From assembly GCA_017465545.1 (NCBI GenBank), contig JAFTVY010000040.1:1-32239 (forward strand): 32,239 nucleotides of DNA. The letters run 5' to 3'. This document shows, piece after piece, positions 191-5,140 of the stretch. The stretch's first letter is position 1. Every line of letters starts with the position of its first letter. Origin of the DNA: Ruminiclostridium sp. (GTDB lineage Bacteria; Bacillota; Clostridia; Oscillospirales; Ruminococcaceae). The translations under genes and the position numbers were made by a program. The notes beneath the pieces are model-generated. The model was given only the letters and a program-made list of their open reading frames with translations, was not told the DNA's origin and ran no database searches.

Positions 191-3034
191 TTACTGTTCA
201 GGGTTTTCGCCCTTCAACTCGTTGCGGTCAAAAAGTCCTTCGATAGAAAGATTCTTGAAGCGTGGTACGTTGTAGGCAAAGGGTGAATTGAGCGCCTTCA
301 CCATATCCATCACGTAAGATTTGTGTTTATCGAGTAAATCAAAATATCTGTGCTTGATTCTGTTCATCTGATGCTGCATGATATAGTGGTACAAAGCAAA
401 ATAAGAATCTATTTTTGCGGGACCGATATCCTCGTTTATATGTGCCGTGCAGTTTCTGATAGCAGTGAGATGTGCAATGATATTTCTGTAATTGGTGAAT
501 ACGGGGAATTTTCCCTGTGCTTTTGCTTCAGCTTCCATCTCGCTGAGATTATCGATATTTTCCTTTGTGTACTTTCTTACCCTTTTGTTTTTTGCAAGAT
601 AATGGTTGTGGGAGTTTTCTCCTTTATCCCACAGTTCTTTTGCAAGCTGGGTATGGCTTATCTTCTTATCTTCTGCCAGTCCGTACAGCTTGTTATATAG
701 CTCGGTATCACGCTCAAGGCAATGAATGGCAATTACGTATCTGGCATTGACGTTTGCAAGATTCTTGATAAGCTGATATGCCACGGTGAGATAAAGCCCC
801 GTTACAGCGATATTTCTTGTTTTACGTCTGCCGTCCTCGGCGGATTTTGTCCTTATATCTTCAAAGCTTCCCAGATTCATTTCTGTTACAGCTGTTGTAA
901 GAGCATTTACCTTCTGTCCTACAGATGCGCCCTCATCGATCATCTCTACGCAGGACGTATAATAACGGTGAAGCTGTTCGGGCGGTATTCTGCTTAGTAC
1001 AAAGTGGACTGCCGCCTTATTTTTGCACAGTCTTCTTACGGTTTTCGGGTTGCAGAATTTTATTGTATAGGTAATAAAACGGCGATTCTTTATAACGTTG
1101 TTTGTTATAAAGTTGCGGAAATCACGGGGGCCTTTCTTGTTACCGCTTTCCGCCTTCAGAAACTCGCTGATTTTTTTCTCAAGCTGTTCCTGCGTCATAT
1201 TACCTTCCATACCGAGAATGTATATCGCATCCCTTACAAGAGCATTTCTTGAACCTGCATCCGCTCTATGCATTCTTGCAAGGTTCTTTACAAGATTCAT
1301 TTCTCTTGTATGCTTTTCGCTGTTATCGAAAAATTCATAACTTTTCTTGAAATCAACGTCAAGTCTCAGCTCTTTTGCAGTGGCAATAAAGCTTGATATA
1401 TCGCTGAATTTACTGATAAGAGTAGTCAGCAGGTCGTTTATCTCCTTGCCGTCAAGGAAAAAGCACATAGCGTAAATCAGCTTTGCGAAAAGAGATACGT
1501 CATTGTATTTTTCTTTGAAGGCAGAAACGTCAACCGACAGCTCAGAAAAATCCGCCTTGGCTTTTTCGTTCTTTACGCCAAGCTTTTTAGACAACTCTTC
1601 CAGGTTATACTTGCCGTTCTTTTCGCAGAAGGAAGTGAAGAGTTCTCCGTGCTTGTTCCACAGCTTTGCCGCTTCCGTCTTATACAGCTCTTCCTTGTCC
1701 TCTTCCATAAGAGTAGAACGAAGAGCGTTTACAAGGTCATCCATTTCTCCTATATTGCAATAATAATAGTAGAAGATGCAGAAATCCATCAGCTTGTAAA
1801 GCTTCGGGCGGATGCTGTCGTATTCGTTATCCTTAATAAAGGATGCTTCTTCAGGCAAAAGCATCTGCTCCCTTAGTTTCTTTATTGAAAAGCCGATATT
1901 CTTATAGTTTTTCTCAACGATGAAATCGTAGTAAAGCCCTGAAACTTCCTTCCATTTTTCTTCACCGTATATATCCTTCAGTATATAAAGATTTACCCTG
2001 TTCTGACTTGAGAAATTGTCGGTTATTTCGGTGAATCTTCTGTCGAAATAATAGTTCAGCGTGTCTTTATATTCCTTGTGTATCTGACCTTCTAAATTAT
2101 ACAGCTTGTTGCTTCTGTCATGGAAGCACCACTGACGCAGAAATCCAGCCAGCGCAATAAGATGGTACATCCTTTTCTGACTATTGTTACCTACGTCAAG
2201 TATACCCTTGCCACGAAGATTCCTTGAATCCTCTATATCAAAATATCCGAGTCTGCCGTTTTTAATCAGCTTTTCAAATTTATCACGGGTTCCTCTGATA
2301 TTATTCTTTGCCTTCTCATTACCGGTAAGCGACGGCTCAGAATCAGGATCGATAAAAGCCCCGTACGTATTCTGAGCACTCATATAGCCCATGAATTCTT
2401 CCCTCTCAACGTTAACCGATTCGTCAACCATATTGTCAAGGGTGGCAACTATATTAGCGGAATATACCGCAAGTATCTTTTCTATGTCAAGGATATTGTA
2501 GATTATCTGAATGTGAAGGTTATCGTCAAAGGTTTTACCAAAGAATCTTTTCTCAAGCTCCGATTTAAGACCAAGAAGATCTATAGGCTTTCTTGAATCA
2601 TTCTGTTGTTTGCCATGGCGGGGATTGTCAGCAATCAGCTCTCTGTCAATTCTGATATTGCGCTTGCTTTCAAAGGATGCGCCTCTTTTTTCAACGTTTG
2701 TTACCGTAATCGAGCTTTCTTCAGCTACCTTTTCAGGCTTCAGCCCGCCGTCTATCTTATATTCAACTATGGCGTCATTGCCTCTGCCAAAGGTGGTAAG
2801 ATAAAGCTCCTCACCCACAACAAGAGTAGATTTAAGTCCGGCACTTTTATTGACGGATTTTTTATTTGTGGCTTTTGCCTTTTTTTCCTGTACCTCTACC
2901 GTCTTTTTCTGCTCAGGCTTTTCAGCTTTTGCCGTCTGCTCCGTCTGCTTATCAGCATCTTTTTGCTTAAAGCGTTCAGCCTGCGCCTTCTTCTGCGCTT
3001 CTCTTAAATCCCTTGCCTTCATTTTCTTTGCCAT
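191..3034 (-). CDS. cas13d: CRISPR-associated RNA-guided RNase Cas13d (type VI-D)
   Basis: This is the single effector of a type VI-D CRISPR system. The family processes its own pre-crRNA and, once it pairs with a target RNA, cuts RNA non-specifically with a composite HEPN nuclease site. I see 947 residues, within the usual 900-1000 of Cas13d and far below Cas13a/b. Both catalytic RX4H motifs are intact: RQWCFH at about residues 300-305 (HEPN1) and RNCTAH at about 860-865 (HEPN2). The first ~65 residues are Lys/Glu/Ala-rich and look disordered. Sequence resembles the E. siraeum protein, for example ARDLRE near the start, FGRGNDA, NILDIEKILAVYS and NLVNVNARYVIA-like blocks. I start at 3034 (MAKKMKARDLRE) because AAAGGAGCG ends 7-8 nt upstream; an in-frame ATG at 3061 adds nine residues but lacks a ribosome site. 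No cas1/cas2 or WYL accessory gene is nearby. The CRISPR array lies upstream on the same strand, and no convincing promoter separates it from the gene. Confidence 0.97.
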   Translation of the reverse strand: MAKKMKARDLREAQKKAQAERFKQKDADKQTEQTAKAEKPEQKKTVEVQEKKAKATNKKSVNKSAGLKSTLVVGEELYLTTFGRGNDAIVEYKIDGGLKPEKVAEESSITVTNVEKRGASFESKRNIRIDRELIADNPRHGKQQNDSRKPIDLLGLKSELEKRFFGKTFDDNLHIQIIYNILDIEKILAVYSANIVATLDNMVDESVNVEREEFMGYMSAQNTYGAFIDPDSEPSLTGNEKAKNNIRGTRDKFEKLIKNGRLGYFDIEDSRNLRGKGILDVGNNSQKRMYHLIALAGFLRQWCFHDRSNKLYNLEGQIHKEYKDTLNYYFDRRFTEITDNFSSQNRVNLYILKDIYGEEKWKEVSGLYYDFIVEKNYKNIGFSIKKLREQMLLPEEASFIKDNEYDSIRPKLYKLMDFCIFYYYYCNIGEMDDLVNALRSTLMEEDKEELYKTEAAKLWNKHGELFTSFCEKNGKYNLEELSKKLGVKNEKAKADFSELSVDVSAFKEKYNDVSLFAKLIYAMCFFLDGKEINDLLTTLISKFSDISSFIATAKELRLDVDFKKSYEFFDNSEKHTREMNLVKNLARMHRADAGSRNALVRDAIYILGMEGNMTQEQLEKKISEFLKAESGNKKGPRDFRNFITNNVIKNRRFITYTIKFCNPKTVRRLCKNKAAVHFVLSRIPPEQLHRYYTSCVEMIDEGASVGQKVNALTTAVTEMNLGSFEDIRTKSAEDGRRKTRNIAVTGLYLTVAYQLIKNLANVNARYVIAIHCLERDTELYNKLYGLAEDKKISHTQLAKELWDKGENSHNHYLAKNKRVRKYTKENIDNLSEMEAEAKAQGKFPVFTNYRNIIAHLTAIRNCTAHINEDIGPAKIDSYFALYHYIMQHQMNRIKHRYFDLLDKHKSYVMDMVKALNSPFAYNVPRFKNLSIEGLFDRNELKGENPEQ

Positions 3035-3061
3035 AATATCACGCTCCTTTATTATACTCAA

Positions 3062-3084
3062 CTCCCCTGCTATACGCAGGGGAG
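3062..3084 (-). promoter_or_regulatory. Repeat-like hairpin in the cas13d 5' leader
   Basis: A perfect 9-bp stem CTCCCCTGC/GCAGGGGAG with a 5-nt loop lies 28 nt upstream of the cas13d start codon, just before the ribosome site. Its CCCCTGC...GCAGGGG core copies the stem of the CRISPR repeats, especially the palindromic terminal repeats at 3793 and 4045. It has no T-run on the minus strand, so it is not a terminator for cas13d; on the plus strand it is followed by six T's. It may be a decayed final repeat or a site bound by Cas13d. Confidence 0.5.
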
Positions 3085-3117
3085 TTTTTTGTTGTGTATC
3101 TTAATATGTACTTTATG

Positions 3118-3638
3118 ATTTCAGACCCCTTCAGAATTACAGGGGTGTAGTTCGAACGGAGAGTTTTTCTTGTCGGCTGACTAGTTTTAGACCCCTTCAA
3201 AATCGCAGGGGTGTAGTAGGGGACGATGTCCTCAACGCCCCGTTTTATTAGAAATATCAATCTTTCGGATGTAAACCAGACCCCTGTAAAATTACACGGG
3301 TGTAGTTCCTTGCGGTAATGATGTCGAAAAGCGAAATGGTTTTAGACCCCTGTAAAATTACACGGGTGTAGTTCGAATTTACAACTCGAGATGAATCACG
3401 TCTCGTTTTAGACCCCTTCAGAATTACAGGGGTGTAGTTCTCATACTTGAAGGAATAACAGCATTCGCCTGTTTTAGACCCCTTCAGAATTACAGGGGTG
3501 TAGTTCGAGACTATTCCTTTACCGCAGGCGGTAAGGGTTTTAGACCCCTTCAGAATTACAGGGGTGTAGTTCCCGCTTGTCTTTGAGCTTGATGACGCTT
3601 CGGTTTTAGACCCCTTCAGAATTACAGGGGTGTAGTTC
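3118..3638 (-). CRISPR. CRISPR sub-array A (8 repeats, adjacent to cas13d)
   Basis: Eight 36-nt repeats start at 3118, 3184, 3273, 3339, 3405, 3471, 3537 and 3603. As crRNA they begin GAACTACACC and end GGGGTCTAAAAC, with a 6-bp stem ACCCCT/AGGGGT, the short-stem shape of Cas13d repeats. There are six 30-nt spacers (3154-3183, 3309-3338, 3375-3404, 3441-3470, 3507-3536, 3573-3602). The gap 3220-3272 holds a REP-like element instead of a spacer. Transcription is on the minus strand from leader 1. The repeat at 3118-3153 is degenerate at its 3' end (CTGAAAT rather than CTAAAAC), as expected for the trailer end. No terminator follows it before cas13d. Confidence 0.97.
3216..3272. repeat. REP-like element 1 inside sub-array A
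   Basis: It begins GTAG and continues with a variable hairpin bounded by GGGGACG and ACGCCCC. A conserved tail TTTTATTAGAAATATCAATC follows, ending in CGGATGT. The flanking repeats are altered at the junctions: the left one ends GTAGTAG instead of GTAGTTC, and the right one begins AAACCAG instead of GTTTTAG. It occupies a spacer position. Confidence 0.8.
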
Positions 3639-3790
3639 CTCAAAATAGCCAAATTTACTCGGCTGTTTTGGGTTATTTTCCACAATCCATCGTTTGCGAA
3701 AAGTTTTCTTTCTTACATTTTACTACATATATCTCCTTTTGTCAACATAAATCTGCATAGGGGTTGGTTTGACGCCAGCGGCATATAAAA
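3639..3790 (-). promoter_or_regulatory. CRISPR leader 1 with promoter (drives sub-array A)
   Basis: This ~150-bp sequence is nearly identical to leaders 2 and 3. On the minus strand it contains TTGACA (3740-3745), a 17-nt spacer and TAAAAT (3717-3722), a strong sigma-A-type promoter about 80 nt from the first repeat. Next to the repeat, AAAATA...AGCC...GGCTATTTT can form a hairpin. As no terminator follows sub-array A, this promoter probably also supplies cas13d mRNA. Confidence 0.88.
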
Positions 3791-3826
3791 CAAACTACAC
3801 CTCTGCGAAAATGCAGGGGTGTAGTT
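3785..3826 (-). terminator. Terminator built from the last repeat of sub-array B
   Basis: On the minus strand, AACTACACCCCTGC and GCAGAGGTGTAGTT form a 14-bp stem with one C-A mismatch and a 6-nt loop, followed by TGTTTTATAT. The 5' half is a normal direct repeat; the 3' half has been replaced by its complement. The same structure ends sub-array C. Confidence 0.75.
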
Positions 3827-3890
3827 CTCGAAACAAAAATGATTTAATGAAAGGGTTTTAGACCCCTTCAAAATTGCAGGGGTGTAGTTC
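3792..3890 (-). CRISPR. CRISPR sub-array B (2 repeats, 1 spacer)
   Basis: A minimal array behind leader 2: a normal repeat at 3855-3890, one 27-nt spacer (3828-3854) and the palindromic terminal repeat at 3792-3827. The 27-nt length, instead of 30, recurs only in the terminal spacer of sub-array C. Confidence 0.9.
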
Positions 3891-4042
3891 CTCAAAATAG
3901 CCAAATCTACTCGGCTGTTTTGGGTTATTTTCCACAATCCATCGATAGCGAAAAGTTTTCTTTCTTACATTTTACTACATATATCCCTTTTTGTCAACAT
4001 AAATCTGCATAGGAGTTGACTGAATGTTGACGGCATATAAAA
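3891..4042 (-). promoter_or_regulatory. CRISPR leader 2 with promoter (drives sub-array B)
   Basis: A near-identical copy of leader 1. On the minus strand TTGACA (3992-3997), a 17-nt spacer and TAAAAT (3969-3974) form the promoter. The copy includes the GGCATATAAAA segment at its far end and abuts the palindromic terminal repeat of sub-array C. Confidence 0.87.
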
Positions 4043-4078
4043 CAAACTACACCTCTGCAAAAATGCAGGGGTGTAGTT
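4037..4078 (-). terminator. Terminator built from the last repeat of sub-array C
   Basis: Same design as at 3785-3826: the stem arms are 4045-4058 and 4065-4078 with a 6-nt A/T loop, followed on the minus strand by TGTTTTATAT. It would stop transcripts of sub-array C before leader 2. Confidence 0.75.
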
Positions 4079-4138
4079 CATGTCATTCTCAAAACAGTCC
4101 AAAAATGTTTTAGACCCCTTCAAAATTACAGGGGTGTA

Positions 4139-4194
4139 GTAGGGGTCGGCCTCCGGACGACCCGTTTTATTAGAAACATCAATCTTTTGGATAT
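4139..4194. repeat. REP-like element 2 inside sub-array C
   Basis: GTAG, then the hairpin GGGTCGGCC-TCC-GGACGACCC (one mismatch), then a tail related to that of element 1. The repeat on its right begins GAACCATACCCC, a damaged repeat start. Confidence 0.8.
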
Positions 4195-4556
4195 GAACCA
4201 TACCCCTTCAAAATTACACGGGTGTAGTTCTATTAGGTAACTCTCCTATATGTTTTTCTTGTTTTAGACCCCTGTAAAATTACACGGGTGTAGTTCATCG
4301 AATGTTACAAGAAGGAACAAGCAAAAGTTTTAGACCCCTTCAAAAATACAGGGGTGTAGTTCGATGAAATCGTGTTTTATCACGAAGAGTTGGTTTTAGA
4401 CCCCTGTAAAATTACACGGGTGTAGTTCGCATTATGTGTAATTTTTCGGATGCATCTAGTTTTAGACCCCTGTAAAATTACACGGGTGTAGTTCGAGGAT
4501 TCTTTCCTAATTTCCCTCGCAAGAGTTTTAGACCCCTTCAAAATTTCAGGGGTGTA

Positions 4557-4650
4557 GTAGGGGGCGACGAGCAGTCCAAAGGACTGCGGCACCCTTCAGG
4601 GTATGTCCTCTGACGCCCCGCTTATTGATAAACATCAATCTTTCGTATAT
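4557..4650. repeat. REP-like element 3 inside sub-array C (long form)
   Basis: The same GTAG foot and GGGGGCG...CGCCCCG outer stem, but the inside is extended by two extra small hairpins (GCAGTCC/GGACTGC and ACCCT/AGGGT). The tail is the CTTATTGATAAACATCAATC variant. The interstitial length is 90 bp instead of 52. Confidence 0.8.
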
Positions 4651-4682
4651 AAACCAGACCCCTGTAAAATTACACGGGTGTC

Positions 4683-4738
4683 GTAGGGGTCGGCCTCCGG
4701 ACGACCCGCTTATTGATAAACATCAATCTTTTGGATAT
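4683..4738. repeat. REP-like element 4 inside sub-array C
   Basis: GTAG plus GGGTCGGCC/GGACGACCC and the CTTATTGATAAACATCAATC tail. It sits next to element 3 in a repeat-element-repeat-element run. The repeat on its left ends GTGTCGTAG, showing a further junction change. Confidence 0.8.
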
Positions 4739-4770
4739 AAACCAGACCCCTTCAGAATTACAGGGGTGTA

Positions 4771-4826
4771 GTAGGGGTCGGCCTCCGGACGACCCGTTTT
4801 ATTAGAAATATCAATCTTTTGGATGT
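4771..4826. repeat. REP-like element 5 inside sub-array C
   Basis: Same hairpin as elements 2 and 4 with the TTTTATTAGAAATATCAATC tail. With the following repeat and spacer (to about 4928) it is nearly identical to 4143-4296, which indicates a segmental duplication. Confidence 0.8.
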
Positions 4827-4994
4827 AAACCAGACCCCTGTAAAATTACACGGGTGTAGTTCTATTAGGTAACTCTCCTATATGTTTTTCTTGTTTTAGA
4901 CCCCTGTAAAATTACACGGGTGTAGTTCAACTACGATATAACAATTTCTAAAGAAGCCGTTTTAGACCCCTGTAAAATTACACGGGTGTAGTTC

Positions 4995-5140
4995 CTCAAA
5001 ATAGCCAAATTTACTCGGCTGTTTTGGGTTATTTTCCACAATCCATCGATTGCAAAAAGTTTTCTTTCTTACATTTTACTACATATATCCCCTTTTGTCA
5101 ACATAAATCTGCATAGGAGTTGACGCCAGTGGCATATAAA
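4995..5140 (-). promoter_or_regulatory. CRISPR leader 3 with promoter (drives sub-array C)
   Basis: Third leader copy and probably the original outer end of the locus. On the minus strand TTGACA (5096-5101), a 17-nt spacer and TAAAAT (5073-5078) form the promoter. Similarity to the other leaders stops at GGCATATAAA (5131-5140), where the poly-hairpin block begins. Confidence 0.88.

Follow-up and report, generated by a model that had tools for sequence, protein, structure and literature searches.

The window, that is, the whole stretch of DNA that was analysed (32,239 nucleotides), is a complete contig (C41) of the 'home' genome G000, a 2.6-Mb draft of a Ruminiclostridium species which consists of 112 contigs and is 97.7% complete. 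Found here is a type VI-D CRISPR-Cas locus, i.e., a gene for the Cas13d effector along with an adjoining CRISPR array that is located upstream of cas13d. The array is built of 36-bp repeats which recur, on the minus strand, in 66-bp steps, and it contains 15 spacers, two of them identical. That 66-bp rhythm is interrupted at five slots, all of which hold what will be described as REP units (U1 to U5; Table 1). Five such slots, each filled by GTAG, a hairpin, and an A/T-rich tail in place of a 30-bp spacer, had been noticed originally, and the parse of the array bears this out.

When the genome_contigs collection was searched for cas13d, no relative was confirmed. Within the genus a cas13d match is seen in one other genome of 71, G014, the array of which is regular and without REP units, and that genome as a whole contains 0 short GTAG hairpins. 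As to the surroundings of the home locus, a CCCCTGC/GCAGGGG hairpin that resembles the repeat hairpin, and which is terminator-like on the plus strand, is present between the array and the start of cas13d (3060-3086). Just beyond the array, on the minus strand, is a Gut-1 RNA (Rfam RF01706; 5421-5491). The contig begins inside the left end of an IS200 (1-175), adjoining the cas13d 3' end, as based on by-eye comparison with loci L039 and L040. A second CRISPR array, having the repeat GTTTGAGAGTAGTGTAATTTCATAGGGGACTAAAAC, exists elsewhere in the genome (L056:1250-1854, on contig C103), with the REP unit absent from the 605 bases read there.

Table 1. Coordinates of features, as positions in the window except in the last row.
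Feature	Position	Strand	Remarks
cas13d (type VI-D effector)	191..3061	-	ORF from first start codon; NF038189, 827.7 bits (cut-off 150)
Type VI-D CRISPR array	3118..4994	-	repeat/spacer parse
REP unit U1	3216..3277	+	hairpin 3216-3242, tail 3243-3277; one A/C mismatch in outer stem
REP unit U2	4139..4199	+	hairpin 4139-4164, tail 4165-4199; adjoining spacer same as at U5
REP unit U3	4557..4655	+	long hairpin 4557-4620, tail 4621-4655
REP unit U4	4683..4743	+	hairpin 4683-4708, tail 4709-4743; sits between U3 and U5
REP unit U5	4771..4831	+	hairpin 4771-4796, tail 4797-4831
Internal leader copy (far edge approximate)	3639..3787	-	promoter-like 3745-3717
Last repeat of second module, full hairpin and T-rich tail (terminator-like)	3788..3827	-	fold z -5.4
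Internal leader copy (far edge approximate)	3891..4039	-	promoter-like 3997-3969
Last repeat of first module, full hairpin and T-rich tail (terminator-like)	4040..4079	-	fold z -6.8
Outer leader (far edge approximate)	4995..5120	-	promoter-like TTGACA-17-TAAAAT at 5101-5073
Segment with U2 and spacer TATTAGGTAAC...	4112..4297	+	96% identical to 4744-4929 (direct repeat D2)
Segment with U5 and same spacer TATTAGGTAAC...	4744..4929	+	duplicate of 4112-4297 (direct repeat D2)
RAYT-like loci with internal GTAG hairpins	L101, L104, L105, L106, L107, L109, L126, L130		hairpin scan of genes

The array is composite: three modules follow one another in tandem, each headed by a leader, and the middle module has just one spacer. 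The near-consensus promoter TTGACA-17-TAAAAT is present in all three leader copies, one of which is found at the array start and two of which are internal. The first two modules each end in a terminator-like repeat, although a simple terminator scan flagged neither 3788-3827 nor 4040-4079. In the third module the final repeat, which adjoins cas13d, is unconverted. As the array of G014 ends likewise, its last repeat (L097:9024-9063) too possessing the full hairpin followed by seven T, a last-repeat terminator may be a device common to these type VI-D arrays. The units occupy two of the three modules, with U1 and U2 each located one spacer away from the distal end of its own module.

From GTAG to tail end, U1 to U5 are 62, 61, 99, 61, and 61 bp in length, respectively, the 52 to 90 bp originally proposed thus being roughly right versus a measured 61 to 99 bp. 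Their hairpins, from GTAG to the closing arm, are 27, 26, 64, 26, and 26 nt, and the A/T-rich tail is 35 nt. Whereas a CRISPR spacer should be about 30 bp long, with intact repeats to both sides, the units are 61-99 bp and the repeat edges facing them are altered. U3, U4, and U5 lie in tandem without intervening spacers.

On the plus strand, the repeat to the left of a unit ends in GTGTA (GTGTC before U4), after which comes GTAGGGG where GTTC would be expected. The repeat to the right starts with AGACCCC (ATACCCC after U2) and is missing its GTTTT, with the 3' AAAAC of the repeat replaced by GGTTTA or GGTTCA. As the flanking repeats are not intact, a unit replaces a spacer along with both facing repeat edges rather than being an insertion within a spacer. 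Both junction places are common to all five units, save for point changes at U2 and U4, and this points to one entry followed by copying, as opposed to five separate landings. The suggestion that the GTAG of the CRISPR repeat served as a landing site goes unsupported: the left junction reads GTGTA-GTAGGGG, a few of its bases being ambiguous, and the same two junctions are shared by all units. The suggestion that the repeat was instead a recombination partner fits better, but the flank similarities underlying it are weak. Particularly, comparison of three repeat variants with REP flanks gave p values of 0.29, 0.54, and 0.024 (500 shuffles each), which leaves kinship of the repeat with REP flanks too weak to be claimed. 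A hybrid-junction pattern had three matches in the genome_contigs collection (Modestobacter, Geothrix, and Holophagaceae) and 0 in viral_contigs.

The array units are members of a dispersed, genome-wide family of GTAG hairpins. A short-hairpin pattern, GTAGGGGNCGN{4,40}CGNCCCG, has 61 matches in the 2.6-Mb home genome versus 0 for the same pattern reversed, so these matches are not a product of chance. Four of the 61 are array units (U3 exceeds the pattern length), and from the 57 matches outside of the array the removal of three nested double matches leaves 54 short copies. To these can be added at least 12 further copies of the long form, i.e., of the U3 type, also outside the array (17 candidates, 13 scored). 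A long-form query based on U3 and starting two bases 5' of GTAG was employed in four genomes, and as 30 of its 42 non-self matches begin exactly at GTAG (9 of 12 at home), GTAG is a genuine boundary of the element. The two bases preceding GTAG vary among the 56 distinct dispersed copies for which flanks were read (AT 32, CC 13, GT 6, others 5). Several copies are paired in inverted orientation at a distance of about 54 or 120 bp, examples being C15:7074-/7128+, C17:47945-/48065+, and C70:6316-/6436+. Inverted REP doublets are known as REPINs, and in its inverted pairing this family is similar.

Stem covariation, which had been suggested from the array units, could be assessed at one outer pair, other stem positions being fixed by the search pattern, and at that pair standard pairing is seen with 50 of the 54 outside copies (10,000 shuffles: mean 28.2, maximum 43). 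The dispersed copies are in agreement with the suggestion, though the array units are so only in part, with T-A in three, G-C in one, and an unpaired A/C in the one that breaks the pattern. The family possesses several traits of GTAG REPs: a short palindrome that has GTAG at one of its ends, many dispersed copies that are partly in inverted pairs, and a stem in which pairing is preserved by changes on both sides. The original view of the units as GTAG-footed, REP-type elements is in these respects supported.

Hairpins and tails differ in their relationships. The array hairpins are of three types, with U3 just 41% and U1 70% identical to the nearest other array hairpin, versus 94% for U3 (contig C108), 92% for U2, U4, and U5, and 89% for U1 in comparison with a dispersed copy. 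The tails, by contrast, are 78-97% alike among array units, with the best dispersed tail reaching only 63-72% (56 copies read). With a 60-nt U5 query, across 71 genomes including the home genome, the full-length tail was found only in the array (four of the five units being among the matches listed at the cut-off), and within the home genome the U4 tail too was found at full length only there. Kinship of array tails with dispersed tails was assessed using shuffles which preserve single-base composition only, and with p values uncorrected for the number of tests. Over the whole tail, 176, 171, 5, 45, and 619 of 2000 shuffles were as good for U1 to U5, respectively; local scoring gave p values of 0.69, 0.19, 0.04, 0.04, and 0.07; and anchoring of the first 23 nt gave 0.92, 0.29, 0.010, 0.012, and 0.94. 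Such kinship would seem to hold up for U3 and U4 only. Within the array, a segment of 186 nt containing U2 is duplicated around U5 with 96% identity, the spacer beside the two units being identical, and this duplicate with its shared spacer, together with the U3-U4-U5 row, argues for copying within the array. The copy number of that tandem triplet is uncertain.

It had been proposed that REPs such as these are moved by an IS200-related transposase, i.e., a RAYT. In the home genome, a PF01797 search at E values of up to 10 finds three Y1 fragments, every one at a contig end, of which the one that was classified is IS200 (NF033573), and the RAYT model NF047646 has one weak match (E 0.025). A RAYT with an HUH motif, that is, a cognate RAYT, was not found in the home draft by profile searches with PF01797 and NF047646. 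The home mover of the GTAG hairpins is missing or unassembled. The weak NF047646 match is a 139-aa protein (L122:1489-1908) which is distantly related to RAYT/Y1 transposases but lacks an HUH motif, and which may be decayed or domesticated.

Among congeners, however, RAYT-like genes were found with NF047646 in 11 of 71 genomes. For those of G012, G021, G046, G023, G017, G055, G057, and G020, NF047646 is the sole NCBIfam match, though at 47-64 bits, which is under the curated cut-off of 80; the RAYT-like genes of G052, G061, and G004 were assigned from reading frames and motifs. Upon re-checking of motifs, 11 further NF047646-matching loci proved to be IS200, and four weak ones (L121, L123-L125), fitting neither class, were counted as no RAYT. 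All six of the congener proteins that were aligned display MPNH(I/V)H as HUH motif along with a conserved Tyr in WxYI, which we take to be the catalytic Tyr. In eight of 13 RAYT-like loci scanned, GTAG hairpins are found inside of the gene, as an inverted pair in six of the eight (one stem mismatch allowed). In G046, the hairpins of both RAYT-like genes match families that are dispersed in that genome. In two congeners, hairpins within the RAYT-like genes are the same as dispersed home copies: in G023, GTAGGGGTCGGCGTCCCCGACGACCCG and GTAGGGGGCGGCGTCCCCGACGCCCCG are letter-identical to 9 and 5 of these, respectively, and in G055, GTAGGGGGCGACGTCCTCGACGCCCCG is letter-identical to 11. Among dispersed copies in G023 itself, other hairpin types outnumber exact RAYT-gene hairpins.

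Ten or more short hairpins are present in 9 of 71 genus genomes, with at most 2 in the other 62, and a RAYT-like gene is found in 6 of those 9 hairpin-rich genomes versus 5 of the 62 (Fisher p 2.2e-4, kinship of genomes being ignored). Hairpins without a RAYT are seen with the home genome, G044 (98 hairpins), and G066 (10). The proposal of movement by a RAYT gains from the congeners, with their RAYT-like genes holding GTAG hairpins, but not from the home genome, which supplies IS200-type fragments and the HUH-less relative only.

The units are probably REPs of a RAYT-associated type which entered the array once, were copied there by recombination, and exchanged hairpins with dispersed copies. 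One REP with its tail would have entered an old, i.e., leader-distal, part of the array, where it took the place of a spacer and of the repeat edges to either side of it. The consequence would have been a repeat-REP hybrid unit, of 88 bp with the short hairpin, which homologous recombination between repeats may then have copied within the array, giving rise to the duplicated segment, to the tandem triplet, and to the occupancy of two modules. Hairpins, rather than array-type tails, would later have been exchanged with dispersed copies, and such exchange would explain how three hairpin types come to be associated with one tail type. The evidence for entry as well as for copying is from a single assembled contig. 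From a different perspective, the three hairpin types might also reflect several insertions at one preferred site, and repeated insertion at one site, together with enclosure behind a terminal repeat, is the main rival to hairpin exchange. With repeated insertion, a RAYT would have inserted REPs on several occasions, always at one position in the repeats, with a spacer deleted each time. The sharing of junction places by three hairpin types is as this would have it, as too is the coincidence of the left junction with the REP's own GTAG boundary. An array-type tail nevertheless is present in all five units, every unit has the same atypical right junction (AGACCCC, or ATACCCC in the case of U2), and U2 and U5 have a spacer in common. 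In addition, no fixed target is visible, as the two bases before GTAG vary among dispersed copies, and no HUH-motif RAYT was found at home by the profile searches, all of which leaves repeated insertion unlikely.

Enclosure, in which a REP that lay behind a terminal, terminator-like repeat became internal through end-to-end joining of arrays, is improbable too if not negligibly so. Here the internal leaders and terminator-like repeats are as would be expected, and only one spacer separates U1, and likewise U2, from its module's distal end. Furthermore, the tail-abutting repeat at U1, U2, and U5 has 6/6 of the extra edge pairing of terminal repeats versus 3/6 for the canonical repeat, which a random hexamer reaches with a chance of 0.001. 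The bases giving that pairing may be merely REP tail, however, no T-run follows, and pairing at U3 and U4 is just 3/6 and 4/6, albeit with an altered opposite edge in these two. Misplacement of dispersed REPs into the array by short-read assembly is very unlikely: the draft does consist of 112 contigs, with several REP copies as well as all three Y1 fragments at contig ends, but point changes distinguish the units, and full-length U5 tails (71 genomes) and U4 tails (at home) were found only in the array. That the IS200 whose end lies beside cas13d (1-175) moved the units is barely credible. No other clear Y1 transposase than IS200 was found at home, yet its end hairpins (CCACCTGC.. and GCCACCGGC..) have by eye no visible motif in common with the GTAG hairpins and look unrelated to that element, and G014 combines 7 PF01797 matches (IS200 motifs being present in the one that was checked) with 0 short GTAG hairpins; IS200 was rejected as the mover. 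A long shot, lastly, is that CRISPR repeats and dispersed REPs form one recombining population. REP flanks would then be similar to the repeat (AAAATTA-AGGGG...GTAG, on the left), and REPs would enter the array, be multiplied within it, and swap hairpins with other parts of the genome, with the 30 nt behind a hybrid repeat serving as a guide against the cell's own REP tails in mRNA such that array copies are pressed to diverge.

GTAG REPs and REPtrons/RAYTs have been well described (Di Nocera 2013, PMC3733652; Bertels and Rainey 2011, PMC3116915; TnpAREP 2021, PMC8266576). In those systems, as here, GTAG is found at the palindrome end, copies are dispersed, and some form inverted pairs, while a Y1 transposase gene has REPs beside or inside it. 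The main text of PMC3733652 does not contain the terms siraeum, Ruminococc, Clostridi, or Faecalibacterium. What differs here is that the congener hairpins are inside the reading frames of RAYT-like genes, and that some of the home copies are part of a CRISPR array. Small, non-autonomous repeats in CRISPR arrays have a precedent in Haloquadratum walsbyi HBSQ001, where the MITE HqIRS37 is inside a CRISPR spacer (PMC3119063). That, however, is a single MITE in a single spacer, and the array is a remnant lacking cas genes, whereas here there are five multiplied REP units, repeat edges are replaced, and cas13d is open. Larger mobile DNA in CRISPR-Cas loci is known as well: cas genes or CRISPR loci may be interrupted by an IS (PMC10359306), and in Sulfolobus islandicus a CRISPR locus contains a pING1-like insertion (PMC3718332). 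These are autonomous and, in the parts of those papers available, apparently without multiplied repeat-element hybrids. The speculation on a REPIN origin for CRISPR, as found within PMC3116915, also links REP-like DNA with CRISPR arrays, but as origin, whereas here an array that already existed would have been invaded secondarily. As to REP, RAYT, MITE, or transposon insertions in CRISPR arrays, the literature searched yielded only these cases, and neither REPs within such an array nor REP-CRISPR hybrids were found reported in it, most subscription journals being outside its reach. REPs are known, that is, while REP-CRISPR hybrids apparently are unreported in the papers searched.

The units cost the array spacers and change its repeat edges, with no sign of benefit, and most likely they are passive parasites which take the place of spacers and are tolerated. 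Fold prediction gave the REP hairpin in each of three pieces, with repeat hairpins present beside it at U5 and U1 and flanking repeats pairing with each other around U4. An array transcript would include the units as hairpins next to altered repeats, and repeats with altered edges should, going by what is generally known of Cas13d, guide poorly. If the present reading is right, then a CRISPR array that targets RNA has been colonised by a small, passive repeat, which recombination between the array's own repeats has multiplied, with spacers lost as a consequence. The locus would lend itself to the question of whether structured inserts along with altered repeat edges are tolerated by Cas13d in its array, and the RAYT-like genes that contain hairpins in their reading frames would make a clean system in which to determine hairpin recognition by each RAYT.
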